Source of the DNA: a virus
Virus record (IMG/VR): IMGVR_UViG_3300037071_000228
Span: 1 to 22,789 of that record
DNA length: 22,789 bases
Direction: 5' to 3' (one strand)
Shown here: piece by piece, positions 1,023 through 22,789 of the stretch
Layout of the letters: every line of letters starts with the position of its first letter
Position numbering within the stretch: position 1 is the stretch's first letter
Notes under the pieces: generated by a model
The model's database searches: none
Seen by the model: the letters and a program-made list of their open reading frames with translations, nothing else
Told to the model about the DNA's origin: nothing
Made by a program: the position numbers and the translations under genes

Positions 1023-1226
1023 TCAGTCCTTCCTCTTGGCGTCGATCGTGCGCGGCATGGCTACCGCATCCTGCGAGCCGTCGTGATGCTCGACGTGGTA
1101 GCCGGCCACGCCACCGTCGTCGTCGCTCTGGACCGCCTTGCGCTTGGTCGCACCCGGCTTGAACTTCTGGACGAACCCGATCGTCTTGAGCTTCTCCACG
1201 AACTCTCTGTCCTCGTCGGTCGGCAT
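1023..1226 (-). CDS. Small hydrophilic hypothetical protein (67 aa)
   Basis: The 67-residue product begins MPTDEDREFVEKLKTIGFVQ and is highly charged, rich in Lys, Asp and His, with no membrane segment or recognised motif. The start is supported by AAGGAG 9 nt upstream and by a TGATG overlap with the stop codon of the 487-residue glycosidase-like gene. A longer reading of the same frame (to 1559) lies entirely inside that upstream gene and has the Arg/Asp-rich look of a shadow, so it was not used. I do not recognise a family. Small proteins of this kind between tail-fibre genes can be accessory or fibre-assembly factors, but nothing here demonstrates that. Confidence 0.7.
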   Translation of the reverse strand: MPTDEDREFVEKLKTIGFVQKFKPGATKRKAVQSDDDGGVAGYHVEHHDGSQDAVAMPRTIDAKRKD

Positions 1227-2689
1227 CAGAAGTTGCTCCTTATCCGGGTGTGAGGCGAGACGACTCCGGGGTGGAACGTCGGCGGCAACGGCACCGTCGT
1301 GACGGTGTACGCCGTCGCGCTCGAGGCCGATCCGGTCGGGGTCACGACCTGGAACAGACCCGACGCGGCTGCGGTCGGAACCTCGGCCGTGACCTGCGTG
1401 TCCGAGTTCACCGTGAACGCGCACGGCTGACCGTTCAGACGGACGATCGTCGTCCCCAGGAGGTTCGTCCCGACGATCGCGACGAGCGTCTGAACGGGTC
1501 CAGCGAGCGGGAGGAAGCTGGAGATCGTCGGGGGAGGCACCGGGGGAGCGTCGAGCCACGCCGCGTGGGGGATGATCTCATCGACCCAGCATTGCCAGTC
1601 GGCGAGCTGCTTGTCGATGCGCATGTCGTAGTTCGCGATCGAGTCCCACATGCAGATCAGCCACCACGGGAAAGACGTCGTGTTCACGTAGTTCGCCATA
1701 TTGCGGAACCAGTTCGGCACCGTGGTCGCGAGTCCGATCGGCCACCCCCGGTTCGTCGGGAACGTGGTGAACGCCGACACCGCCTCCGTACCCGTCTCCA
1801 GGATGCACGGCAGCCACGGGTGGCGAGCTTCCATGAACGCTCGACGTCGGGTCCACCAGGAGCCGAAGTTCAGGTTGTAGTACCACTCGGCCGCACCCCA
1901 CTGCGCCGGTCGGTTGTAGACGTCGCACGACGGGTGGGTGATGTTGTCGTTCCCCCAATCCCAGTTGTCCGGGAAGAACCCGTTGTTGATCGCCGTGAGG
2001 CCGCTGAACATGAAGGGACCGTTAGGAACCTCCGTCGAGGTATCCGAAGTCGTGGAAGGCGGTCGCGTCGCGAACGGTCCCGCCGTGAGGTTGATCATCC
2101 CGATCATGCAACCCTCTTGCGTCGTCTGGCCGGAGTTCGTCCCCTTCCAGATCGAGACACCATGCGCCACCAGGATCGCGTACAGCTTCTCGCACGCCGC
2201 TCGCCAGTTGGCGGTCCCCTGCGCAAAGGTCGTCGCTCCCGAGGTCGCTGCCGTTCTCGCGTCTCCCTCCGGTTCGTGGTGGAAGTAGAGAGCGAACGAA
2301 CATCCCCACTTCCCGATCCCACGGTGGAGGTCTTGCCAGTCCGCGATGTCCTGCGCCCAGTTGTTCGCGTCGGTCCAGATTGCCTGACCTGTCGCCGCTG
2401 CACCCATCTGCGCCCAGGTGTACGGAGGACCGACCTTCACGGTGACGATCGGTAGCACCTGGTCGGTGATGTCGTTCGCGATGTTCCCGAGCGCTCCCGA
2501 GGTACCGCTCGGCGGGAAGCTGGCGGTGATGTCGTAGTAGTGGCGACGGTTCGCGGCCGTGTGCCACGACGACGGTAGGCCAGATCGCGCTCGCACCGCC
2601 GCCTCGAAGCCTCGTCGAGTGTCGGCGATCGTCTGTCGATTCCACCCCGCTCCGGTGTCCTCCCCCGTCGAGTACCCGAGGAGCGTCAT
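1226..2689 (-). CDS. Tail-associated clan GH-A-like glycosidase with C-terminal IPT/TIG domain
   Basis: The product has 487 residues from ATG 2689, which overlaps the stop of the upstream fibre gene as ATGA; a longer reading to 2731 lacks support. Residues 1-380 look like a TIM-barrel glycosidase. ALYFHHEPEGD (133-143) resembles the acid/base site of GH26-type enzymes (His138-Glu139), and PCILETGTEA (294-303) provides a plausible nucleophile Glu298 on a late strand. Many Trp residues (for example WDWGND and EWYYNLNFGSWW) fit a sugar-binding cleft. Residues ~386-463 form an IPT/TIG immunoglobulin-like domain (PPTISSFLPLAG, GTNLLGTTIVRLNG, FQVVTPTGSAS), a module common in phage tail and surface proteins. 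The likely role is depolymerisation or recognition of host cell-envelope polysaccharide during adsorption. Family and catalytic residues are inferred by motif; the substrate is unknown. Confidence 0.82.
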   Translation of the reverse strand: MTLLGYSTGEDTGAGWNRQTIADTRRGFEAAVRARSGLPSSWHTAANRRHYYDITASFPPSGTSGALGNIANDITDQVLPIVTVKVGPPYTWAQMGAAATGQAIWTDANNWAQDIADWQDLHRGIGKWGCSFALYFHHEPEGDARTAATSGATTFAQGTANWRAACEKLYAILVAHGVSIWKGTNSGQTTQEGCMIGMINLTAGPFATRPPSTTSDTSTEVPNGPFMFSGLTAINNGFFPDNWDWGNDNITHPSCDVYNRPAQWGAAEWYYNLNFGSWWTRRRAFMEARHPWLPCILETGTEAVSAFTTFPTNRGWPIGLATTVPNWFRNMANYVNTTSFPWWLICMWDSIANYDMRIDKQLADWQCWVDEIIPHAAWLDAPPVPPPTISSFLPLAGPVQTLVAIVGTNLLGTTIVRLNGQPCAFTVNSDTQVTAEVPTAAASGLFQVVTPTGSASSATAYTVTTVPLPPTFHPGVVSPHTRIRSNF

Positions 2690-4212
2690 ACGAGCGGACC
2701 CTGTTCCAGTTCGGTCGCGATGATCCCCCACGTGTTGGACGTCGAGAACGACGCGGAGATCGACGTGTCGAAGGCGTCAGATCGCCAGACGACGTGGAGC
2801 CGGATCACCGGCGACGTCATGTCGAGCGGCGGCACCGTGAGCTCCGTCCAGGTCCCCTCCGGGGTGAACGTCGCCGTCGCCGCGTTCCTGGCGAGTGCGT
2901 AGATGCCACGGTTCGCGGCGTCGTCTGCCGCTCCCAGCGTCGCCGTTGGCGCGTTGTTCGCCGCGTTCCCGGTGACGTCCTTCGCGAGCGAGAGCGCGAC
3001 CGCGCTCGACGGTGACTCCGTGGTCCGCAGGACGACCGCGCAGACCCCGACTCTGGACTCGCCGTTGATGTGCGCGACGAGCGGAGCCGCCGAGGTCGTC
3101 ACCGCGTCTCTCCCGACGAAGTGCGTCATACGTCTACGGGTCGTGCCGGCAGAGACGAACAGCACCGATCCGCCTCGCGTCCACGACGACACACCGCCAC
3201 CGGTCAGGGTCGTCAGGATGCCAGGATCGCCGTCGGAATCCACGCGCGTCTCGACGAGGAAGACGTGGCCGACCCGCTTGTTCCCGATGTTGTAGCTCGT
3301 CGAGGAGGTGTAGTCCGACCCGTTCGTCAGCCGGTCGGCGTTGTCGATCCAGTTCGTGAGCACCTCCACGCCGAGGGTCGGGTAGACCTCCGGGGGTGGC
3401 GCGCCAGCGTTCTCCAGCGCGGTCCCGTACCAGATGCCGTTCAGTTGCCAGATCGTTACGACGGTCGTGTCGTCGGCCACCGTGGAGATCACCGGCGCCA
3501 ACCCATCTGAGGTGAACCACGTGATCGACTGATCCCACGTCACGGTTCTCGGCGTGCCGCCTTGGATGAAGTGGATCGTCGCCGCCGACGCTGCGCGTCC
3601 GAGCGAGTCGTCCAGGCCGATCGCGCAGTTAGCCGAGAGCGAGATGACGTAGAACGACGCCTCCGAGAGATCGAGGGACTGCGAGCTTCCCGACGACGCG
3701 ATGATGTCTACCGCTTCCGCAGAAGGTCCGGGGGGTCCGGTGAGTCCCGCCGCTCCGGTGGCTCCGGTGGCTCCGGTGGCTCCGGCCGAGCCGTCGTTGC
3801 CGTCGGTGGCGACCAGTTGCCAGTTCGATCCGGGAGGCTCCTGGTTCGTGTGATTGGTGTCGCAGACGTAGGTGGAGAGCGAGTCGGAGTGCCGTACGAG
3901 ATCGCCGACGACGTACGCCGTGACCGCGCTCCACTCCCCCTTCGGGGTGATGCTTACACCATCCGCGCCATCGGCTCCTGGAGGTCCGGGAGAGCCAGCG
4001 ATCGCGGGGTCGATCATCTGGAAGCGATCGGTGGACTGGTTGAAGAACGGCAGCGAGCCATCCGGCCACGTCGCGATGCCATCCTCGACCGCCTGCTCGA
4101 ACAGGTTGTAGAGGAAGTGGATCGCGTCGTGATGTTGCTGGTGGAGCTTCACGTCGGGATGCGTCGCGTCGTCGGCGTAGGCGTTATCGACGTTGATCGG
4201 TAGGTCAGTCAT
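2686..4212 (-). CDS. Collagen-like minor tail / fibre protein (508 aa)
   Basis: The N-terminus (1-70) is helical and probably anchors to the tail. It is followed by short Gly-X-Y collagen-like runs at 73-85 (GSPGPPGADGADG) and 138-163, flanking a small aromatic module (91-135: GEWSAVTAYVVGDLV, then NWQLVA). That module resembles chitin-binding-type carbohydrate modules, in which 'W....Y..GD.V' is typical. Residues ~165-265 are beta-rich. The C-terminal ~230 residues form a further beta domain (GVSSWTRGG at 340-348, WGIIATELEQ near the end). GAGGAG lies 5 nt before ATG 4212. The intergenic gap to the upstream gene is 9 nt and the downstream overlap is ATGA. Collagen-like stalks are well known in tail fibres and imply a trimer. 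The likely role is receptor binding. The C-terminal domain appears related to the 226-residue protein encoded at 14329-15009. Confidence 0.88.
   Translation of the reverse strand: MTDLPINVDNAYADDATHPDVKLHQQHHDAIHFLYNLFEQAVEDGIATWPDGSLPFFNQSTDRFQMIDPAIAGSPGPPGADGADGVSITPKGEWSAVTAYVVGDLVRHSDSLSTYVCDTNHTNQEPPGSNWQLVATDGNDGSAGATGATGATGAAGLTGPPGPSAEAVDIIASSGSSQSLDLSEASFYVISLSANCAIGLDDSLGRAASAATIHFIQGGTPRTVTWDQSITWFTSDGLAPVISTVADDTTVVTIWQLNGIWYGTALENAGAPPPEVYPTLGVEVLTNWIDNADRLTNGSDYTSSTSYNIGNKRVGHVFLVETRVDSDGDPGILTTLTGGGVSSWTRGGSVLFVSAGTTRRRMTHFVGRDAVTTSAAPLVAHINGESRVGVCAVVLRTTESPSSAVALSLAKDVTGNAANNAPTATLGAADDAANRGIYALARNAATATFTPEGTWTELTVPPLDMTSPVIRLHVVWRSDAFDTSISASFSTSNTWGIIATELEQGPLV
3724..3801 (-). 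repeat. Collagen-like Gly-X-Y coding repeat with 9-bp DNA tandem
   Basis: The fibre gene here encodes Gly-X-Y triplets (residues 138-163). At DNA level the core is a 9-bp unit, gctccggtg on the plus strand, repeated about 3.7 times at 3752-3785 and encoding GAT. Short perfect tandem units like this can change copy number by slippage, which would lengthen or shorten the fibre stalk without breaking the frame. Confidence 0.85.
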
Positions 4213-11824: not shown

Positions 11825-12394
11825 TTAGCTCGCCAAGAAGTCGGGGTCGGTGATGAAGACCGAGAACGGGTCCTGCGATCCGGCTGCGGTGGCGCCGAAC
11901 GTCACCGGCAGGTTCACGATCGACGTCCGGTTGAACGTCACCTCGCCGAGATCGGTCACGATGCCGACGGGGATGTAGAAGCGGTAGACCCGCGTCCCGT
12001 CGATGACGTCGATCGTCATGGAGCGTTCGTCCAGCGTCTCTGCCGCTGCTGGCGAGAACGTGTAGGGACCGGGGTCCGCACCCGTCGTCGTCCCACCGCC
12101 GAACGCCAGACCGAGCGTCTCGCTGTTCAGCTGCGCGAGCGTGAAGCTGACCTCGAACGACTTGGAGGTCGGGATGCGCTTGATCGGGTAGAACTCCTGC
12201 CAGACGAAGATGTCAGTGACCTCCTGGCCGGGAGCCAGGCTCACCCCATCCTGGGTGGCGTAACCGAGGTCGATCCAGTCGGAGTCCACGGACGCCATGG
12301 TGCTCGATGCGTTCGTCGGTGCCGTCGCGTCGGTTGGCGCGACGTAGATGTGTCCATTCGCTGCGACGAATACTTCGTCAGCGTTGTTCGGCAC
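11825..12394 (-). CDS. Major tail (tube) protein
   Basis: The 189-residue product forms the hexameric rings of the tail tube. The pattern is typical of siphovirus tube proteins: an N-terminal strand with IYVAPTDATAPTNAS, then WIDLGYATQDGVSL, then IRIPTSKSFEVSFTLAQLN-like content, and a C-terminal EVTFNRTSIVNLPVTFGA strand pair. The start is GTG 12394, with a very strong ribosome binding site (GAGGAGGG, 6 nt upstream) matching the high demand for this protein. It is preceded by the only sizeable gap in the tail half of the window, which holds a hairpin, and is followed after 3 nt by chaperone gene G. The order terminator, tube, chaperones, tape measure makes the assignment firm. Confidence 0.93.
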   Translation of the reverse strand: MPNNADEVFVAANGHIYVAPTDATAPTNASSTMASVDSDWIDLGYATQDGVSLAPGQEVTDIFVWQEFYPIKRIPTSKSFEVSFTLAQLNSETLGLAFGGGTTTGADPGPYTFSPAAAETLDERSMTIDVIDGTRVYRFYIPVGIVTDLGEVTFNRTSIVNLPVTFGATAAGSQDPFSVFITDPDFLAS

Positions 12395-14332: not shown

Positions 14333-15009
14333 CCGACCCCCTGCGCCGCCAGGAGCTTCGGTCCACGCCTGACCTCGATCGCGATGGCACCCCACTGGAG
14401 CTTCGTCCCACCGGAGTCGGGACCGATCGTCGTCACCGATCCGGGTGACGGGTTCGACCAGGCGGCCATGCCAGTCGTCGGTGTGCCGTAGCCGGTGTCC
14501 ATGTTCTCCGTCCAGCCGGTGAACCCCATCGTCGCGGGGTTGTTCAGGTTCGCGATCGCCATGTACACGCCTGACTCGGCGCGCGTCGCCGACATCGTGA
14601 TCTGGACCGTGGTGCCGGTTCCCGGAGTCGGGTTCGACGTCGAGACGCGCTGGACGAACGTGTTCCCCGGATCGGCGCCAGCCACCTGCACGACGTGGAT
14701 GATGCAGCCGGTGTGGTTGTCCCCCGTACAGTCGAACGTGAACTCCCCCGCCGACGGAGCCGCGATCGGTGGAGCGTCGAACAGATACATCGAGTTCGCA
14801 TCCGACGCACCCCATAGCTCGTTGAGCCGTCGGGTCCAGGTGAACCCCTGGCCGCTGAACGTCGGCGCGGCTGCCACCGTGGCGGTCGCGGTGACGACCG
14901 CGAAGACCGGACGCCAGGGTGTCGCGGTCGTCGCTCCCGAGGTCGCGGTCGAAGCGCCGTCGGTCGAGCTGGCCGTCTCCGCGATCTCGGTGAACGCGAG
15001 GGGGATCAC
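14329..15009 (-). CDS. Beta-rich virion-type protein (226 aa)
   Basis: The start is GTG 15009, overlapping the preceding stop as GTGA; no strong ribosome binding site is visible, so coupling is likely. After a Thr/Ala/Ser-rich N-terminus the protein is beta-rich (PWRPVFAVVTATATV, then FSGQGFTWTRRLNELWGA, CIIHVVQVAGAD, VQITMSATRAESGVYMAIAN), ending LQWGAIAIEVRRGP. The spacing of the FTWTR, GCIIHVVQV and WGAIAIEV strands matches the C-terminal domain of the collagen-like tail fibre. This suggests the same jelly-roll-type domain is used twice in this phage. Its place upstream of the neck genes fits an exposed head decoration or capsid-bound adhesin. The product name is left general. Confidence 0.78.
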   Translation of the reverse strand: MIPLAFTEIAETASSTDGASTATSGATTATPWRPVFAVVTATATVAAAPTFSGQGFTWTRRLNELWGASDANSMYLFDAPPIAAPSAGEFTFDCTGDNHTGCIIHVVQVAGADPGNTFVQRVSTSNPTPGTGTTVQITMSATRAESGVYMAIANLNNPATMGFTGWTENMDTGYGTPTTGMAAWSNPSPGSVTTIGPDSGGTKLQWGAIAIEVRRGPKLLAAQGVG

Positions 15010-16223
15010 TTGTACAGAAGAACCGTCTGCATGGCGTTGGAGGCTGGAGCGCCGGTATCGTTCGCCGCCACGCCGGTCGTCGCCGCCTGGCAGAGCGCGG
15101 TGTCGAACTCCACGCCGGAGGGGATGTCCTTCGTGAACGCGCTCAGCGGTGGCACCGGGAAGGGACCGAGGAACGTCGCGGTCGAGCCGACGGTCGTGTT
15201 CGCAGCGGTGGCGTTGTAGAACCGGAGGTACAGCACCGAGGTCGTGGCGTTGTAGCAGTAGATCGAGTACAGCTGGCCTCTCGAGGTCTTCACGTCGTCT
15301 TCGGATTCATCGACGTCGATGTTGTTGATGACGAGCAGACCGCCTTGCGTGTGCGGCTGCTGCGTGACGATCGCCTTACGGTCCAGCGTCATCCGAGCCG
15401 CGCCACCATCACCCTCGTCGAGCGAGTCGGTGGAAGTCTCGTCGGCCTGGAACCCCGCCATCATCACCTTCGTCGTCGCGGGGGTGAACCCAGCGTCGTC
15501 GGCGACGATCGCGTCGTCGATCAGTTGCACCGAGGTCACGATGGAGGCTTGGGTCCCCTCGATACCGTCCACGTGACCGTCGATCGCAGTCAGCAGCGTC
15601 TCGACTCCATCGACCCGTCCGTCGATCGTAGTCAGCGACGAGTTCGTGGTGCCGATGAGCGCCTCGATGCCGTCCACGTGACCCGTGATCGTGGTCAGTT
15701 GGCCTTCGATGCCATCCACTCGACCGTCGATGGTGGTCAGCGTGGAGTTCGTCGTGCCGATGAGCGCCTCGATGCCGTCCACGGAGCCTTCGATGCCATC
15801 GACGTGACCGTCGATCGCGGTGAGCAGCGTCTCGATGCCGTCCACACGGCCGTCGATCGTCGTGAGACTGGTGTTAGTGGTCCCGATCAGTCCCTCGATG
15901 CCATCGACGTGGCCGATCACCGTGTCGAGCTTCGTGTTCGTCGAGCCGACCAGCGTCTCCAGGCCGTCCACGTGACCATCGACCGCCGCGAGGGTGGAGA
16001 TCACGGTGTCGAGGTCTGTCTCGACGTTCGCGAGCGTCGCCTCTGTCGCTGCGCCGGTCGGCAAGACGCTGGAGACGACCCCCACGGAGTAGGAGTCCTC
16101 CTCCATGATCGCTTCGTCCACGCCGCCGCGAACGAGCTTCACCAGTTGGTAGTGCCGACCCGCGATCTCGTCGGTGGCGACGGTCGCGCCGGCACCTGGA
16201 GTGATATCGATGTTGTCTGCCAC
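15006..16223 (-). CDS. Heptad-repeat coiled-coil virion fibre (405 aa)
   Basis: The start is GTG 16223 with GGGAG 5 nt upstream. The N-terminal ~45 residues (IDITPGAGATVATDEIAGRH, then LVKLVRGG) match a short domain common in phage structural proteins, usually written 'GsGatVa.DeigG.hyQrvKl'. Residues 60-80 lead into a coiled coil at 81-225 built from alternating 14- and 21-residue units (DGRVDGIETLLTAI and DGHVDGIEALIGTTNSTLTTI types), with V/I/L at a and d positions. Residues ~240-405 are a beta domain with YSIYCYNATTSVLYLRFYNA and FPVPPLSAFTKDIPSGVEFD. This is the C-terminal type of many virion proteins, where 'lysiyvyN....vrylklYN' introduces the fold. The layout (anchor, rod, globular end) is that of a fibre. 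The head-gene context favours a capsid fibre or decoration protein. Confidence 0.85.
   Translation of the reverse strand: MADNIDITPGAGATVATDEIAGRHYQLVKLVRGGVDEAIMEEDSYSVGVVSSVLPTGAATEATLANVETDLDTVISTLAAVDGHVDGLETLVGSTNTKLDTVIGHVDGIEGLIGTTNTSLTTIDGRVDGIETLLTAIDGHVDGIEGSVDGIEALIGTTNSTLTTIDGRVDGIEGQLTTITGHVDGIEALIGTTNSSLTTIDGRVDGVETLLTAIDGHVDGIEGTQASIVTSVQLIDDAIVADDAGFTPATTKVMMAGFQADETSTDSLDEGDGGAARMTLDRKAIVTQQPHTQGGLLVINNIDVDESEDDVKTSRGQLYSIYCYNATTSVLYLRFYNATAANTTVGSTATFLGPFPVPPLSAFTKDIPSGVEFDTALCQAATTGVAANDTGAPASNAMQTVLLYK
15549..15983 (-). repeat. Heptad-based coding repeats (units of 42 and 63 bp)
   Basis: Residues 81-225 of the 405-residue protein consist of about eight related units of 14 or 21 residues, plus one extra 7-residue insert (SVDGIEG). 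All lengths are multiples of seven. Consensus short unit: DGRVDGIETLLTAI; consensus long unit adds GTTNSTLTTI. At DNA level the words 'gatgccgtccac' and 'ccgtcgat' recur many times. Because every unit keeps the heptad phase, copies can be gained or lost without disturbing the coiled coil. Confidence 0.88.
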
Positions 16224-16224
16224 G

Positions 16225-16599
16225 TCAACTCCCGTCTGGCATGGTTACGGACCACGAGATGATGCCAACCGGCGAGCCGGTCGTGATCGACGAAGTGGTC
16301 AACGTCATGTCGCTGGAACCGTCGATCACCGGCACGTCCGCCGAACTGTAGGCGCGGTACCACCCAGCGGTGCCATCGGTGATGCCGGTCGTCTCGGCGG
16401 CTGCTGCGTCGGCGAGCGCCACGCCATTCGTCGGTGCGCCGAAGGCCGGGGTGGCGAGTGGGATATCGGCGAGCAGCGTGCCGGTCGCGGCGTCGTCGGG
16501 GTCGGCGGGTCCGCTGCCGGTTCTGATCTCGACGTGTCCACCGTCCAGGAGATCGGTGAGCGCGGTCACCATCGCGGAGCGGGTCGCGTTCTGGATCAC
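16225..16599 (-). CDS. Small virion-type beta protein (124 aa)
   Basis: The start is GTG 16599, overlapping the stop of the 91-residue gene as GTGA and preceded by AGGAG. The product begins with a helix (MIQNATRSAMVTALTDLLDG). The pattern that follows, GGHVEIRTGSGPADPDDAAT, then LLADIPLATPAFGAPTNGVA, then GTAGWYRAYSSADVPVIDGS, is that of a widespread small phage structural protein family ('i.iytG..pa..d.a.tGtlLat', 'tGta.wfR..d..g..v.dGs'). Members are usually annotated as hypothetical or structural proteins. The C-terminus is beta-rich. A longer reading in this frame (to 16884) lies over the 91-residue gene and looks like a shadow. Location in the particle is unknown. Confidence 0.82.
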   Translation of the reverse strand: MIQNATRSAMVTALTDLLDGGHVEIRTGSGPADPDDAATGTLLADIPLATPAFGAPTNGVALADAAAAETTGITDGTAGWYRAYSSADVPVIDGSSDMTLTTSSITTGSPVGIISWSVTMPDGS

Positions 16600-16887: not shown

Positions 16888-17160
16888 TTACTCGGGGACG
16901 ATCTCCTCGCGCTCGTCGTAGACCCCCGTGATGGCGCCGTTCTCATCCCGGATCAGGTGCTTGGTGCGATCCGGTCCGATGAGCGATGCCACCCGGCCGT
17001 ACTCGTCGCGGACCACGGTGCTCGTCGCGAACGGGATGCGCAGGACCCCGGAGCCTCTCTCGGTCCCGAGGATGATCGCTTCCCGCTCGACCGGATCGGC
17101 CAGCGTCTCTACCTGCTCGACGAGCTTGTCGAGCTTGTCTCGATCTTCGGTGCCGTCCAT
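16888..17160 (-). CDS. Small acidic hypothetical protein (90 aa)
   Basis: The product begins MDGTEDRDKLDKLVEQVETL, a charged helix with heptad spacing, followed by ADPVEREAIILGTERGSGVL, then VVRDEYGRVASLIG and LIRDENGAITGVYD. The last two segments resemble YD-like turns ('RDe.GrV..l.g' and 'rDenGaitgVyd'), so a short beta-hairpin repeat is likely. ATG 17160 has GGAGG 4 nt upstream. The N-terminal 52 nt overlap the C-terminus of the glycerophosphotransferase-like gene in another frame. No family recognised. It is the first gene after the sugar-chemistry cassette and precedes the block of small virion-type genes. Confidence 0.75.
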   Translation of the reverse strand: MDGTEDRDKLDKLVEQVETLADPVEREAIILGTERGSGVLRIPFATSTVVRDEYGRVASLIGPDRTKHLIRDENGAITGVYDEREEIVPE

Positions 17161-17969
17161 AGAACCTCCAAGGCTCTCTGCGTGGCGCTCCCAAGGTAGG
17201 GGAATAGTCCACGGGTTGCTGCTCTGCGTGGCTCCTCGTGGCTCTCAGGAGCTTGTATCGCGTCTCTGACGCGCTCCACCAGGGTTCCGGGGGTCGCGTG
17301 GCTCCCTACGTCGCTGTACCACTCGTATCTGAGGCCGGAGCTCACCGAGATGAAGCTCTGCTGACCGGGATAGTCCAGGAGCACCACCGGCCGGTCGAGC
17401 GCCGTCCACTCGTAGATCGTCGAGGAGTGGTCACAGACGTACACCGAGGCTCGTTCGACCACCTCCCGGAAGTCGGGGACCCACTCGACGTTCAACGATC
17501 TCCAGAACGGCTCCATACGCTCGGCTCGTGGGTGGCCGTGGCCGATCACCGGCATCCTCGTCACGAGGTCTTCGATCGCCTCGGCGTAGTCCTCCAGGAT
17601 GCGCGAGCGGAACAGCGAGAGCCAGTGGAACGACACGGCCACCGGACCCTCGACCCGATGCGGCACCTGCACGAGCGCGTCCATCTTCGGCGTTCCGACC
17701 ACGGAGGAGCCGATCCCCGCTGCGGCGTACCTGTCCGCAAGGAACTGGTTCGGCGCGAGAACGAGAGACGCGGTGTCGCGGATGAGGTCGAGGGTCCGGT
17801 CGCCGTGCCATTGCAAGCCGACGCCGTGATCCATGTAGATCGAGCCGGGGTTCTGTCGAAGCTCCCGCGTCGAAGCGACCAAGGCCGGGGGTCCGTCGTC
17901 TCCCGTCCAGGCATCGCGTATCGGTGCGAGGTGTTGCTCGTACTGCGGTTCGTTCGCGATGAACCTCAA
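17109..17969 (-). CDS. CDP-glycerol glycerophosphotransferase-family (GT-B) enzyme
   Basis: The start is TTG 17969, overlapping the glycosyltransferase stop as TTGA; the longer reading to 18134 is antiphase inside that gene. The 286-residue product carries the signature series of the TagB/TagF group: SIYMDHGVGLQWHG (43-56), VVGTPKMDAL (90-99, the 'G.Pr.D' motif), VIGHGHPRAE (141-150, the 'HP' motif), and SVYVCDHSSTIYEWTALDRP (175-194, the 'D.SS..fE...l.rPv' motif). Those enzymes add glycerol-phosphate or related units from a CDP-activated donor to wall teichoic acid or capsule. This one lacks an N-terminal membrane-targeting region and is shorter than bacterial family members. Its Ser-rich C-terminus (IETSSTSSSSR) is encoded where the next gene overlaps. 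The donor is unknown; a UDP-sugar-using GT-B enzyme is an alternative. Confidence 0.8.
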   Translation of the reverse strand: MRFIANEPQYEQHLAPIRDAWTGDDGPPALVASTRELRQNPGSIYMDHGVGLQWHGDRTLDLIRDTASLVLAPNQFLADRYAAAGIGSSVVGTPKMDALVQVPHRVEGPVAVSFHWLSLFRSRILEDYAEAIEDLVTRMPVIGHGHPRAERMEPFWRSLNVEWVPDFREVVERASVYVCDHSSTIYEWTALDRPVVLLDYPGQQSFISVSSGLRYEWYSDVGSHATPGTLVERVRDAIQAPESHEEPRRAATRGLFPYLGSATQRALEVLWTAPKIETSSTSSSSR

Positions 17970-19348
17970 TACCCGATACCGACCCGGACGTCGCCGATGT
18001 GCGTCACCCACGGCTCGCCGTCGCCGATGAACGCCGCGAACCGACCCTTGCTCCATTGCGATCGACCGAACGTCTGCTCGCTCCCTCGCGTGTCCGGCCA
18101 GCCGTCGTCGATCAGCGACCTCCGGTACACGCACGGGTTCGTCGTCCAGAAGTTGCGGTGGCGGAGGTAGGGGATACCGTCGGCGAGTAGATGCTCATAG
18201 GTGTCGGGTCGCTCCTGGATGATCCCCCCCACCCGCTTCTCAGCCGGTGCCCAGGCGTGCCGCAGGAGCGCTACCTGCGCCAGCGACTCGTCGTACTCCA
18301 GCACCGAGATCAGATCGTCCAGGTCCACGTCACGGTCGAAGGTGAAGTCTTCCTCGAGATGGAAGATGAACGGTGACCCCTGGCCGTTCTGCTGCGACTC
18401 GTACTCCCATATGCTCCGCATCGCTCCGGTGTACCCGAGCTTGCCGGGGGTCGTGTGGATATCCCAGTCCGGGTAGACCTTGTGGAGCCACCGGCTGAAC
18501 CGCTCGTTGCCGGAGTCGTCCTGGATCGTTCGACGGACGATCTTCCCGTGGACGTGCTGGTTGAACGAGTCGATCGTCGCAGCGATGTAGTCCTGCCGAC
18601 CAGCCGAGATGACCACGACGTCGATGCCGTGGCGCTTGATCTCGTGCACCTCCTCGCCGGGGACGTATCGCTGCGCGACGTTGCGCTCGTTCAGGACCCG
18701 CTCGACCACAGGCCAGCCATCCCGAAGCGCCGCCGAGTACCGCTCCGCGAGCCTTCGACCGACGTTCCACTCGCGAGTCGGTCGAGCGATCGGGAGAGAC
18801 GGTTCGTGCCAGAGATGCCATGCCGTCCCAGGCAGTTGGTCGGCTCCACGGAGAACGACGGCTGCCGCCCAGCAAGCGATGTCTTCGTGTCCCCATCCCT
18901 GGAAGCGAGCATCGAATCCTCCCAGCTTCTCGAAGAGATCGCGACGCATCATCCAGACGCGCGACGTACACGGATCGCGTCGAGCCTCGGCGAACTCCTC
19001 CCAGCCGTGGCGACCTTCGAGGAGCTTGTCGGTACCGATCCGAGAGAGATCAGCGCCGATACGGTGCGGGACCGTGAGGCGTCCCGTCTCCAGCGCCGAC
19101 TCGTATCCGGCGACGACCTGGCGAGCGTCTTCCTCGAACACGTCGGCGTCCACGATGACGAGCACGTCGAAGTCTCCGGCCTGTCGAGCGCCTTCGTTGA
19201 TGCACCACGACCGGTTGAACGGCTCGGTCCCGGCGTGCTCGACCTCGAAGATCGGCCAGCCGAACCGCTCCCATACCTTCCGGCAGTACGTCCAGGCTCG
19301 CTCACGATCCGGGTCACCTGGTCTCCACGGCACGACGATGGCTGGCAT
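17966..19348 (-). CDS. Two-domain GT-A glycosyltransferase
   Basis: ATG 19348 shares one base with the upstream TGA (TGATG) and has AGGAGA 5 nt upstream. The 460-residue product has two GT-A-like halves. Half one (1-~235) has VLVIVDADVF (62-71, a DXD metal/nucleotide site at 67-69) and FDARFQGWGHEDIACWAAA (145-163), the region typical of polypeptide GalNAc- and galactosyltransferase C-terminal domains ('GWG.ED'). Half two (~241-460) begins IDVVVISAGRQDYIAATIDS, like GT2 enzymes, and has FHLEEDFTF (329-337) as a possible DXD-equivalent. It would transfer one or two sugars from nucleotide donors. No membrane segment is visible, so it probably acts in the cytoplasm, on protein or on a precursor. 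The acceptor is unknown. An antiphase N-terminal extension to 19504 was rejected. Confidence 0.88.
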   Translation of the reverse strand: MPAIVVPWRPGDPDRERAWTYCRKVWERFGWPIFEVEHAGTEPFNRSWCINEGARQAGDFDVLVIVDADVFEEDARQVVAGYESALETGRLTVPHRIGADLSRIGTDKLLEGRHGWEEFAEARRDPCTSRVWMMRRDLFEKLGGFDARFQGWGHEDIACWAAAVVLRGADQLPGTAWHLWHEPSLPIARPTREWNVGRRLAERYSAALRDGWPVVERVLNERNVAQRYVPGEEVHEIKRHGIDVVVISAGRQDYIAATIDSFNQHVHGKIVRRTIQDDSGNERFSRWLHKVYPDWDIHTTPGKLGYTGAMRSIWEYESQQNGQGSPFIFHLEEDFTFDRDVDLDDLISVLEYDESLAQVALLRHAWAPAEKRVGGIIQERPDTYEHLLADGIPYLRHRNFWTTNPCVYRRSLIDDGWPDTRGSEQTFGRSQWSKGRFAAFIGDGEPWVTHIGDVRVGIGY

Positions 19349-19929
19349 CACGCTCTCCTGAACGCGGTCGCACACGCCGCGCCGTGCTCGGTGGTCCGTA
19401 TCTCGTACTGCGCGAGTCTCGCGCCGCCGGCCACCGCCCACCGCTCGATCTCCTCCGGGTCCAGCGTGTGGATGTGGCAGTCGTTCTTCTCGTAGCCGAC
19501 CCACTCGAACAGTCGGACGATCGGCGCCAGTCGTATCGACTCCCGGACGATGAGTTCAGGGTCCAAGACGTGCTGGAGCGTGTTGTATATCCATATCTCG
19601 TCGGGATCCACCGACGGCGCGACGAGGAACACCTCACCCGGTATCTGGAGCACCTCGATACCGGCGTCGGCGTATCGAGCGCCGACCCACGCGGGGAACT
19701 CCCCCGGATCGACGACGACGCCACGCGACCATCCCTGCGCCTTCAAGAGCAGCGAGACGGGACCGCCGCCGATATCGACGATGTTCCCCTTGGTGTGGAC
19801 CGCTGAGGAGTAGCAGTCGAGTCCCATGAGGATCGCGGCGTCCATCTGCTCGATCTCGACGGCGAGGGTGTTCACGCAGTTCCCCCACCACTTCATCTCG
19901 GCCTTCTGCGCTTCGCGCCAGACCGTCAT
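19348..19929 (-). CDS. SAM-dependent methyltransferase (193 aa)
   Basis: ATG 19929 overlaps the previous stop as ATGA and has GGAG 5 nt upstream; longer readings of the frame (to 20379) are antiphase in the upstream gene. The class I fold is shown by motif I NIVDIGGGPVSLLLKAQG (49-66), the acidic residue of motif II in VVVDPGEF (71-78), and motif IV-like DEIWIYNTLQHVLDP (110-124), followed by a helix and strand (RLAPIVRLFEWV). The N-terminal 48 residues are helical (EMKWWGNCVNTLAVEIEQMD). The target cannot be told from sequence. Its position between two other methyltransferases and a glycosyltransferase suggests a sugar or small-molecule acceptor rather than DNA; no DNA-methylase catalytic motif (DPPY or PC) is present. 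Confidence 0.86.
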   Translation of the reverse strand: MTVWREAQKAEMKWWGNCVNTLAVEIEQMDAAILMGLDCYSSAVHTKGNIVDIGGGPVSLLLKAQGWSRGVVVDPGEFPAWVGARYADAGIEVLQIPGEVFLVAPSVDPDEIWIYNTLQHVLDPELIVRESIRLAPIVRLFEWVGYEKNDCHIHTLDPEEIERWAVAGGARLAQYEIRTTEHGAACATAFRRA

Positions 19930-20477
19930 GCGCGCTCCATGAGCCAGATGCCTTCCCAACCCCACTGCATCGAGTGGTCGGGTGGATAGTCGATCTGGAC
20001 GAACTCGCACCGATCTCCGGGGAGCATCAGCAGGTCGGCGACCTCGGGTCCGGACACCGCGAGATCGGGAACCGGCCAGTCGGGTCCCCCGGCATCGAAC
20101 TCCTCCGGCTGCGGAGGGATGAAGAACACGATCGCGGCTCGCGCAGTCCACGAGCTGGCGAAGTTCGCCGCGATCGTGCGCCAGTCGGCATTGTGCTCCA
20201 GGACGTGGCGCATCATCGCGCAGGGGACCTCCGAGCGGTACGTCCGGAGATCGGCCTGGATATCGCACCAGCGCGACCACGCGCCGTCGATGCCGATGTA
20301 GGGAGACTCGTCGAAGAACTGCTTGGCCCAGCCGACGCCGCATCCCCAATCCTCGACCGTGCCGTGTCCGTCGAGCCACGCGGCGCAGATGGCGTAGCTC
20401 TCGGTGTCCTCGTAGGCGAACTGCTGGCGCCGATCTCCGTAGTTCCAGGGACCGTACAGCGTGGCCGGCGCACTCAT
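19926..20477 (-). CDS. SAM-dependent methyltransferase (183 aa)
   Basis: The start ATG 20477 overlaps the FkbM-type stop as ATGA with GGAG 5 nt upstream; an in-frame ATG 15 nt earlier is less likely. The N-terminus SAPATLYGPWNYGDRRQQFA (2-21) is followed by motif I VEDWGCGVGWAKQFF (41-55), an acidic residue in YIGIDGAWS (60-68), and MMRHVLEHNADWRTIAANFA (88-107). The last is a classic 'HVLEH' motif of small class I methyltransferases. PPQPEEF and other aromatic or acidic residues complete the C-terminal half. Known relatives with 'HVLEHN' often act on sugars or on cell-surface metabolites. It probably works with its neighbours; the substrate is unknown. Confidence 0.86.
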   Translation of the reverse strand: MSAPATLYGPWNYGDRRQQFAYEDTESYAICAAWLDGHGTVEDWGCGVGWAKQFFDESPYIGIDGAWSRWCDIQADLRTYRSEVPCAMMRHVLEHNADWRTIAANFASSWTARAAIVFFIPPQPEEFDAGGPDWPVPDLAVSGPEVADLLMLPGDRCEFVQIDYPPDHSMQWGWEGIWLMERA

Positions 20478-21040
20478 ATCGACTCCAGCCACGACTCGAT
20501 CTGCTCGGCGTGGGTCGGGAGATCGGGGTAGGTGGTGCGGAAGTTCACGCCGGTCAGCGAGAGTCTCGCGACGATGCTCTGCGGAGCGTCGGAGATCGCG
20601 GGGACCTTGCGCGCATCGAAGTCGATCATCAAGCTGCCGATCCTCTCGATCTGTCCTGATCTCAGGAGGTCTTCGAGGATGGGGACCTCGCCGCCTTCGC
20701 AGTTCATGGATACCACGGACCCCCGACAGATCGCGCGGAAGAACGCGCTGGCTCTCACGGCTCGTACGTAGGTCTTCACGCTGGCGTCTACGTCGTCCTT
20801 GTCGGGGTAGAGGCTCGCTTCGAGTCGATCGTTCACGCCGTACATCGTCGTCGAGCCGGACGTGTGCGAGAGCGCGAACTCGTGGACCACGATGCGAGGG
20901 TCGAACGAGTACCGCTGGCGCAGGATCGCCGCCTGTACCGGCATCGGCTCGATCGCGTGTATCACGTCGAACGGATACCTCGAGCGGCGTACTTCGTCGA
21001 TGGTCTGGCCTTCGTGAGCTCCAACGTCCACGAAGATCAT
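20474..21040 (-). CDS. FkbM-family methyltransferase
   Basis: The 188-residue product starts at ATG 21040 after GGGAGG (5 nt spacer). It shows the FkbM pattern: motif I IFVDVGAHEGQT (2-13), motif II HAIEPMPVQAA (28-38, the 'fEP.p' site), IVVHEFALSHTSGSTTMYG (50-68, the 'v.n.Alsd..G...f' segment), and SMNCEGGEVPILEDL (111-125), the 'iDvEGaE..vL.G' signature of the family with the first Asp replaced by Asn. Family members O-methylate hydroxyl groups of sugars, glycans or polyketides. It opens the five-gene cassette after the capsid gene and is separated from it by the hairpin gap. The Asn substitution at the signature could alter metal or acceptor binding; activity is likely but unproven. Confidence 0.88.
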   Translation of the reverse strand: MIFVDVGAHEGQTIDEVRRSRYPFDVIHAIEPMPVQAAILRQRYSFDPRIVVHEFALSHTSGSTTMYGVNDRLEASLYPDKDDVDASVKTYVRAVRASAFFRAICRGSVVSMNCEGGEVPILEDLLRSGQIERIGSLMIDFDARKVPAISDAPQSIVARLSLTGVNFRTTYPDLPTHAEQIESWLESI

Positions 21041-21112: not shown

Positions 21113-22342
21113 TTACGACGCTCCGATATCACACTGCTTGAACCACTCCGGGTAGTGCTTCACGGCCTTGCTGCGCCGGTAGGCACGCACCGCGATCTGG
21201 TCCTTGGCGAACCAGTCGTCGTGGCTCGTCGATGTCTCCACCGTGGTTCCACCCCGCGTGTAGAGGGTGGCGCCTGCGCGGAACGCACCGACCAACGGAC
21301 GTCCGGGGTCGGCCGCTGTCGAGATGACGAGGCGCAGTCCGCCCCACCAGTCGCCACGCGGTCCACCGACGGGACCTCCGCCGTAGTACTCGTCACTCGT
21401 CGCCGAGCGCAGCGTGTCGAGGAACCCGGCGTCTGTCGGGTAGACCAACACACCGTCGGGACGGCCACCGCTGATCTGGATGGCGACCATCGCCGCTCGG
21501 ATCGCGTCGAACCCGTTCGGGGTTGTCGGGTGGACCGTCGAGCCGTCCACCGTGGACGCGCTCGCGTACAGGACGGTCGTGATGGCCGTCTCCTCGACCT
21601 GATCGACCATGAGGCCGATCTGGTTGTTGATGTACCCCGCCAGCGCCGGAGCGTCGGAGAAGAACTCGTCCGACATGCCGCCGAACGCGGTGTTCTTCTC
21701 CAGCGTCACGGTCGCGTCGTCGAACGCGAACTCGACACCCTTCTTGGCCGCACCTTCTGCGGTCGGGTTGTCGGACGGTGCCGTGCGTGTCACGACCGTT
21801 GGGTAGTGACCGACGTTGGAGTCCACCGGGACCGCCGTCATCAGGTCACGCACCGTCAACGGCAGCTGCACCAGCGACGGCGTGTAGAGGGTGGGGTCCC
21901 ACCACGGCCGGATCGCGTCGGCGTTGCTACCGGTCGAGATCAGCGTCGGGTCCCCAGCGGCCTTGAGGTTCATCGCGGGAATCTTGAACCCCGACGGGAA
22001 CTCTCCCGTCCGCTTGAACTCGGCGACCGCCGCCTTGTAGTGCACGGAGTTGATGAACGCCTCGCCGATGGTCGCGGCTCGCACCTCGACCTCCGGGTCC
22101 TGGGTGGCGATCTCGGTGATGGCGCCGATCGCGTCCAGCTGTGCCTTCATCTCTTCCTTCTGCTCGATCGACTTGATCTCGACCTGGTCCTGCGTGATCG
22201 ACTTCATGTTGCTCGACCACTCGGACATCTCGTCGTCGGTCAGGTCGCGGTGCTCGTTCTGCGCGACGTCGAGGAGCGTCTTGTTCCGCTCGGTCAGGTT
22301 CTTGACCTTGCCGAGCAGGTGTTCTTTCACCTCGTTCTTCAC
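21113..22342 (-). CDS. Major capsid protein (HK97 fold)
   Basis: The start is GTG 22342, overlapping the protease stop as GTGA with GAGAGGGG just upstream. Longer readings to 22708 run antiphase through the protease gene and have shadow composition. The 409-residue product has a helical, charged N-terminal segment (1-~85: KVKNLTERNKTLLDVAQNEH, then QVEIKSIEQKEEMKAQLDAI), the delta/scaffolding domain removed by the protease. The coat domain follows (VRAATIGEAFINSVHYKAAV; VQLPLTVRDLMTAVPV; FDDATVTLEKNTAFGGMSDE; GYINNQIGLMVDQVEETAI; RLVISTAADPGRPLVGAFRA; WFAKDQIAVRAYRRSKAVKH). These are the E-loop, spine-helix, A-domain and C-terminal P-domain features of this family, where 'd.f.kdqva.Ra..R.a..v' is especially typical. 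Cleavage probably lies between residues 80 and 92, near EVEVRAA. Confidence 0.95.
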   Translation of the reverse strand: MKNEVKEHLLGKVKNLTERNKTLLDVAQNEHRDLTDDEMSEWSSNMKSITQDQVEIKSIEQKEEMKAQLDAIGAITEIATQDPEVEVRAATIGEAFINSVHYKAAVAEFKRTGEFPSGFKIPAMNLKAAGDPTLISTGSNADAIRPWWDPTLYTPSLVQLPLTVRDLMTAVPVDSNVGHYPTVVTRTAPSDNPTAEGAAKKGVEFAFDDATVTLEKNTAFGGMSDEFFSDAPALAGYINNQIGLMVDQVEETAITTVLYASASTVDGSTVHPTTPNGFDAIRAAMVAIQISGGRPDGVLVYPTDAGFLDTLRSATSDEYYGGGPVGGPRGDWWGGLRLVISTAADPGRPLVGAFRAGATLYTRGGTTVETSTSHDDWFAKDQIAVRAYRRSKAVKHYPEWFKQCDIGAS

Positions 22343-22789
22343 GTGCGTCCCCTCTCGGAGAGGTAGGCGTCGAGTTCCGCGAGCTGCAAGCGGAGCCGTT
22401 CGGCCTCGGATAGCGGAGCGGATGCCTGCTCCTGGTCGTCGTCCTCGTCCACGCCTTCGGATAGGAGTGAATCGAGTTCCTGGCGCATCCTCTCCAGGAC
22501 TGATGCGGTAGCGGCGGAGATACGTCGTCCGCGCTTCGTCTCGGTTGCGGGTTCGTCCGGGTGAGCGATGGCCTTCAGCGCGATCGTCTGCGCCTCCGGG
22601 TTGGCTCCGATGAGGGTGGGACCGACCTCGTAGAGATCGAGGTCCATGATCTCGCGCACGCCGTCTTTCCCTACACGGTCCTCGACCGGCGTGAACGCGA
22701 AGCTCCACGCGGTGATGAGTCCACGCCGCATGGCCTTCCAGACGGAGAGTGCTTCGGGGTCATCGAGGAAGAACTTCCCCGCGACGACG
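22339..22789 (-). CDS. Prohead maturation protease, N-terminus beyond window edge
   Basis: The frame is open from the right edge to TGA 22339, giving 149 visible residues. FFLDDPEALSVWKAMRRGLI, then AWSFAFTPVEDR, then IMDLDLYEVGPTLIGANPEA match the end of the caudoviral prohead serine protease (peptidase family S78/U35). In that family, 'v...vkrG.i.glSfgf...' is followed by 'l.EvS.v..gaNp.a'. The catalytic His and Ser would be mostly or wholly beyond the edge; the Ser of AWSFAF is the family position of the nucleophile. The last ~70 residues are acidic, with a helical tail (RLRLQLAELDAYLSERG). The enzyme removes the delta domain of the capsid protein encoded directly after it, with which it overlaps as GTGA. 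Confidence 0.92.
   Translation of the reverse strand, partial: VVAGKFFLDDPEALSVWKAMRRGLITAWSFAFTPVEDRVGKDGVREIMDLDLYEVGPTLIGANPEAQTIALKAIAHPDEPATETKRGRRISAATASVLERMRQELDSLLSEGVDEDDDQEQASAPLSEAERLRLQLAELDAYLSERGRT

Follow-up and report, generated by a model that had tools for sequence, protein, structure and literature searches.

The DNA examined here (the window) is a 22.8-kb viral fragment from IMG/VR, analysed over its whole length of 22,789 nucleotides and not a complete genome; a near-DNA search with the whole window found no match among phage records. Five minus-strand genes run from 21040 to 17109 with consecutive overlaps of 4, 4, 1 and 4 nt—in agreement with the initial annotation, which had described a tightly coupled five-gene cassette (1-4 nt overlaps) at 17109-21040, directly after the capsid gene. 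In turn, they encode an FkbM-family methyltransferase (20474-21040), the class I methyltransferase MT2 (19926-20477), the class I methyltransferase-like MT3 (19348-19929), a fused glycosyltransferase (GT; 19348-17966) and a TagF-like GT-B enzyme with a TTG start (17109-17969). Upstream, also on the minus strand, lie the C-terminal part of an HK97-type capsid maturation protease (22339-22788, the gene being cut by the window end; phrog_80, 2.2e-19) and then the major capsid protein of HK97 fold (22342-21113; Phage_capsid PF05065, 5.8e-11; phrog_10), with a gap of 72 nt from its stop codon to the cassette. The proposed placement between capsid and neck genes stands, with one nuance: on the 3' side of the cassette come small ORFs, a Ser/Thr-rich virion structural protein with a GTG start (16225-16599, minus strand; phrog_3758, 3.7e-18 on 16596-16225) and a coiled-coil fibre-like gene (15006-16223, minus strand; DUF7310, 7e-15; fibritin-like phrog_1056), and only beyond the latter are the head-closure and neck genes found, at ~13.9-12.9 kb. 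The fibre-like protein is built from repeated IDGRVDGIE-type coiled-coil units. Further along the same strand, the major tail (tube) protein is encoded at 11825-12394 (phrog_117, 4.4e-35), and a gene of the tail region (1226-2731, minus strand) specifies a C-terminal IPT/TIG domain (PF01833) preceded by an N-terminal part that looks glycoside hydrolase-like by eye and has no Pfam match there. The protein of another contig, L065:70-975, looks similar to this product, and in phage GX15bay genes annotated as endoglucanase and mannanase are located upstream of the GT cluster.

The first gene of the cassette had been read as an FkbM methyltransferase, and its product indeed passes NCBIfam TIGR01444 (52.5 bits, cut-off 37.7), while falling slightly under the Pfam PF05050 cut-off (20.3 vs 22.7). 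By profile, it belongs to the FkbM methyltransferase family, for which sugar or polyol O-methylation is predicted. The two additional class I methyltransferases that had been proposed were likewise recovered. MT2 gives a weak match alone, and its sequence, with the motifs EDWGCG and MRHVLEHN, is conserved in three other phage contigs (56-64% identity); a genome scan with MT2 found no prophage among the matches and returned bacterial homologues adjoining glycosyltransferases and surface-polysaccharide genes instead. MT3 carries the SAM motif VDIGGG and belongs to phrog_3603 (4.4e-34), a PHROG without known function with relatives in Synechococcus phages; its slot is taken by a sulfotransferase (PF03567) in contig L031. 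When MT2 or FkbM was used singly, IMG/VR scans matched contig L007 alone and searches of phage records yielded no match. Comparison with the 65%-identical L007 copies gave dN/dS values of about 0.25-0.33 for FkbM and MT2, i.e., both genes are under purifying selection. A recent acquisition of the cassette was also considered and rejected, as its GC and GC3 resemble those of neighbouring genes and the divergence of FkbM and MT2 equals that of the protease.

The fused GT (460 amino acids) has the two GT-A domains originally assigned to it. Domain 1 (18734-19348) is GT7-like and corresponds to phrog_1721 (residues 3-184), with the motifs FNRS, DAD and GWGHED; it passes Pfam Glyco_transf_7C (PF02709) at 24.0 against a cut-off of 23, and its FNR/DxD/GWGxED motifs align with those of beta4GalT1 in a weak alignment (E 0.15). 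Domain 2 (17966-18643) corresponds to phrog_3047 (residues 274-460; 3.1e-9) and displays DDSG and HLEEDF motifs. The predicted structure of the fused protein is a poor model (pLDDT 54.7). A genome scan with this protein recovered no relative, and a single-sequence scan of IMG/VR returned nothing, such that alignments were needed. In phages A3Wally and Syleon, the two halves are encoded by separate neighbouring genes, which supports their action in one pathway.

The fifth enzyme had been called CDP-glycerol glycerophosphotransferase-like, an assignment that holds for fold, motifs and family but not for the window protein's own profile score: the protein (286 amino acids) reaches 15.1 bits against Pfam PF04464, under the cut-off of 22.1, whereas its homologue in L012 passes with 33.9 bits. 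Single-sequence searches with this protein found no match in the PDB and nothing in IMG/VR, where alignments were needed; a family search seeded by an alignment with the Rctr41k homologue led to 18 IMG/VR loci. Across a 13-sequence family, the HG, HP and D-x-SS motifs (H48-G, H146-P, D180 and S183 in the window protein) are nearly invariant, and further residues are conserved as well; as a profile, this family hits Cps3D, a TagF-like capsule polymerase (1.4e-4), and TarL (0.016). The predicted model (pLDDT 84.7) has TagF (3l7j) as its best PDB match, at 2.9e-8. Because this model is matched nearly as well by UDP-GlcNAc 2-epimerases and by other GT-B enzymes as by TagF, the fold prediction indicates a TagF-like GT-B enzyme whose donor may be CDP-glycerol or another compound, with glycerophosphate transfer as a plausible activity. 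In several of the 18 loci, the TagF-like enzyme carries a fused C-terminal segment that resembles a GT-A domain (weak Pfam Nucleotid_trans match, E 0.0064), and in several the gene is situated among head genes. In L016, L017, L021, L024 and L026 (5/5), the gene 3' of such a fusion is short, encodes a GKGPSL motif and is weakly MptE-like (PF01973). Sulfotransferase-like, HAD-like and GT genes also occur in two unrelated viruses with TagF-like homologues (L018:1493-6759 and L005:274-3105), beside the homologue in L018 and ~9 kb upstream in Rctr41k.

Comparative genomics of the capsid-to-connector interval, which the initial annotation had put forward as a check, recovered cassette genes in L007, L031 and L065; these and the other recurring loci were selected for their cassette genes, so they give no prevalence. 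L007 carries the protease, capsid (88%), FkbM (65%) and MT2 (65%) genes in the order seen in the window. The core of FkbM, MT2 and fused GT is found beside two other capsids (L031 and L065; 46-65% identity, with 46-53% for FkbM). In L031, the order is portal, S49 protease, HK97 capsid, FkbM, MT2, sulfotransferase (PF03567, 5e-16) and fused GT (58%), followed by two more GT7-like genes and an adaptor-like gene. In L065, a P22-type coat gene (PF11651, 3.5e-16) precedes a gene with weak similarity to Stealth proteins, MT2, FkbM and the fused GT (55%), and connector genes come next. The recurrence of the core next to a P22-type capsid thus means that the position of the cassette is kept while the capsid fold changes. 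Further GT cassettes lie between head genes and head closure in L034, L035, L038, L041, L044 and L045, and the cluster J phage Baka has a GT, a kinase, a methyltransferase, two GTs and a GT7-like gene (genes 11-16) between its capsid and head-tail connector. In L028, an HK97 capsid gene is followed by an adaptor-like gene, a GT7-like gene, Gly_transf_sug, a methyltransferase, PS_pyruv_trans, the TagF-like gene and a head completion protein. The distance from capsid to adaptor is only 228-500 bp in 12 actinophages with related capsids and no cassette. Tailoring genes differ among cassettes and comprise sulfotransferase, pyruvyl-transferase-like and Stealth-like genes as well as extra GTs. NAD-dependent epimerase (nucleotide-sugar) genes lie inside the GT cassettes of L039 (9029-9994) and L044 (6054-6992), which suggests that some phages also produce their own sugar donor. 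In Streptomyces phage Keanu (L122:7447-7926), whose capsid ends in Ala, a gene annotated as a methyltransferase lies between the capsid gene and the tail genes and is possibly a minimal cassette.

Many phage GTs are thought to act on the host surface, and both the TagF-like enzyme and the relatives of MT2 belong to bacterial surface-polysaccharide loci—associations that would fit a cassette altering wall teichoic acid or another host polysaccharide late in infection or during lysogeny, e.g., for superinfection exclusion. This explanation appears unlikely, as the cassette contains no membrane-anchored flippase or GtrA/B-type gene and lies inside the late head operon, beside different capsid folds. 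Virion decoration, the role favoured in the initial annotation, emerges as the likely one from this recurrence beside unrelated capsids together with a serine tag at the C-termini of the capsid and tail-tube proteins; the neighbourhood of MT2's bacterial relatives fits a glycosylation pathway too.

The window capsid ends in GAS (...CDIGAS) and the tail tube in LAS (...DFLAS). Counting one cassette phage per lineage, with lineages that are partly non-independent and controls that may hold GTs elsewhere, a terminal Ser—often [G/A]-S—was found on the capsid of 10/11 cassette phages vs 1/21 controls (p 1.8e-6) and on the tail tube of 9/10 vs 3/20 (p 1.3e-4). The hypothesis arose on this first set, and a second set, unseen at that time and with most of its GT genes located in other parts of the genome, gave a weaker yet significant result: G[ST] ends occurred on five of nine capsids vs 0/21 controls, and on five of six tail tubes vs 0/20. 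Che8 also shows such ends, TGS and DGS, and its capsid-neck interval is empty. Among Pseudomonadota prophage capsids, a terminal Ser was found in 9/29 and GS in 0/29. The tag is missing from the capsids of Baka and Syleon, from both proteins of L049rec, and from L042rec and L060rec. Based on these sequence correlations, the C-terminal small residue plus Ser is likely the glycan attachment point, and a link of this kind would not be expected if the cassette acted on the host surface or on phage DNA. The literature points the same way: mycobacteriophage GTs are reported to place glycans on capsid and tail-tube C-termini (PMC12619734 and PMC11600133, both citing Freeman 2023), and cluster O phages, as described in PMC11600133 from the same study, possess an O-methyltransferase and three GTs, with capsid and tail tube modified.

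A decorated virion could also have its glycans elsewhere, i.e., on the coiled-coil fibre-like or the Ser/Thr-rich structural protein, whose genes closely follow the cassette (16599-15006) and whose products contain 20-24% Ser+Thr (24% in the structural protein). We regard these targets as improbable in comparison with the capsid and tail-tube C-termini, since in other cassette phages (L065 and L034) the gene directly 3' of the cassette encodes an adaptor or a head closure protein and no such fibre gene lies there, whereas the C-terminal tag is common to these phages. A still more remote option is that the cassette hypermodifies phage DNA, for which gene cluster 146-155 of phage SP-15 offers a precedent: its CDP-glycerol glycerophosphotransferase and GTs have been proposed to decorate a modified uracil (PMC5977210). 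However, no thymidylate-synthase-family gene was detected in 10 cassette- or GT-bearing phage records, three of them complete (Baka, Che8 and Syleon), the studied window itself being only a genome fragment. The placement between capsid and neck likewise speaks against DNA as the substrate, and the C-terminal tag correlation would be left unexplained.

Taken together, these observations lead us to propose, with a probability of about 0.73, that the cassette encodes a pathway by which the phage glycosylates its own virion, in which the fused GT acts on a C-terminal Ser and the methyltransferases and the TagF-like enzyme perform the tailoring; both host-wall modification and DNA hypermodification are less likely than this. 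We infer the activities, the acceptor site, the order of steps and the glycan structure as follows. The cassette would be expressed along with the head genes—the late-operon position speaks to the timing of expression, not to the target. The fused GT may then attach a short glycan to virion proteins and extend it, the C-terminal Ser common to capsid and tail tube being the most likely site of O-linkage; FkbM, MT2 and MT3 could add O-methyl groups and the TagF-like enzyme a further residue, either glycerol-phosphate or a sugar.

A wider and distinctly tentative generalization, which we hold at somewhat under even odds, is that many tailed phages have in common a modular virion-glycan system with a GT core—often located between capsid and neck genes and transferable between unrelated capsid folds—that reads a [G/A]-Ser tag at the C-termini of both the capsid and the tail tube. 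Tailoring enzymes could be exchanged (three O-methyltransferases, TagF-like phospho-transfer, sulfation, pyruvylation) and would diversify the coat, so that particles would bear teichoic-acid-like or sulfated glycans. Reports of phage virion glycosylation are recent and cover few phages. If our reading is right, the combination of a capsid-neck cassette with capsid and tail-tube proteins ending in [G/A]S would serve as a simple sequence rule to predict which phages are decorated, and at which sites; it would also suggest coats bearing methyl, sulfate, pyruvate or phosphodiester groups. Such coats could bear on the immune recognition of phages and on particle stability, and the system could be a source of enzymes for tagging proteins at their C-terminal Ser.

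Several known systems share parts of this architecture. With TagF, TarL and Cps3D (PF04464), the window enzyme has the GT-B fold and the HG/HP/D-x-SS motifs in common, TagF being the best structural match; the solved TagF and TarL chains are longer than its 286 residues. The SP-15 cluster combines a CDP-glycerol glycerophosphotransferase with GTs, as the window cassette does, but is tied to base modification, whereas the window genes lie in the head operon. Cluster J (Omega-like) phages such as Baka bring a GT/kinase/methyltransferase cassette to the same interval; unlike the window, Baka has no FkbM and no annotated TagF-like enzyme, its GTs are unfused, and its capsid does not end in Ser. 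A functional parallel is mycobacteriophage virion glycosylation in cluster O and other clusters (Freeman 2023, as presented in citing papers), with phage GTs, a cluster O O-methyltransferase beside the GTs and C-terminal modification. In comparison, the window has three methyltransferases and a TagF-like enzyme, its relatives have sulfotransferase, pyruvyl-transferase-like or Stealth-like genes, and its cassette sits inside the capsid-neck interval that is empty in Che8. The novelty suggested for the cassette must be narrowed accordingly: as far as these citing papers convey, virion glycosylation by phage GTs with an O-methyltransferase, on capsid and tail tube, is already known (PMC11600133), and the cluster J cassette was already annotated in the same interval. 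What appears to be new is that the placement between capsid and neck persists when the capsid fold differs, that tailoring includes sulfate, pyruvate and TagF-like steps, and that capsid and tail tube have in common a C-terminal tag of a small residue followed by Ser.
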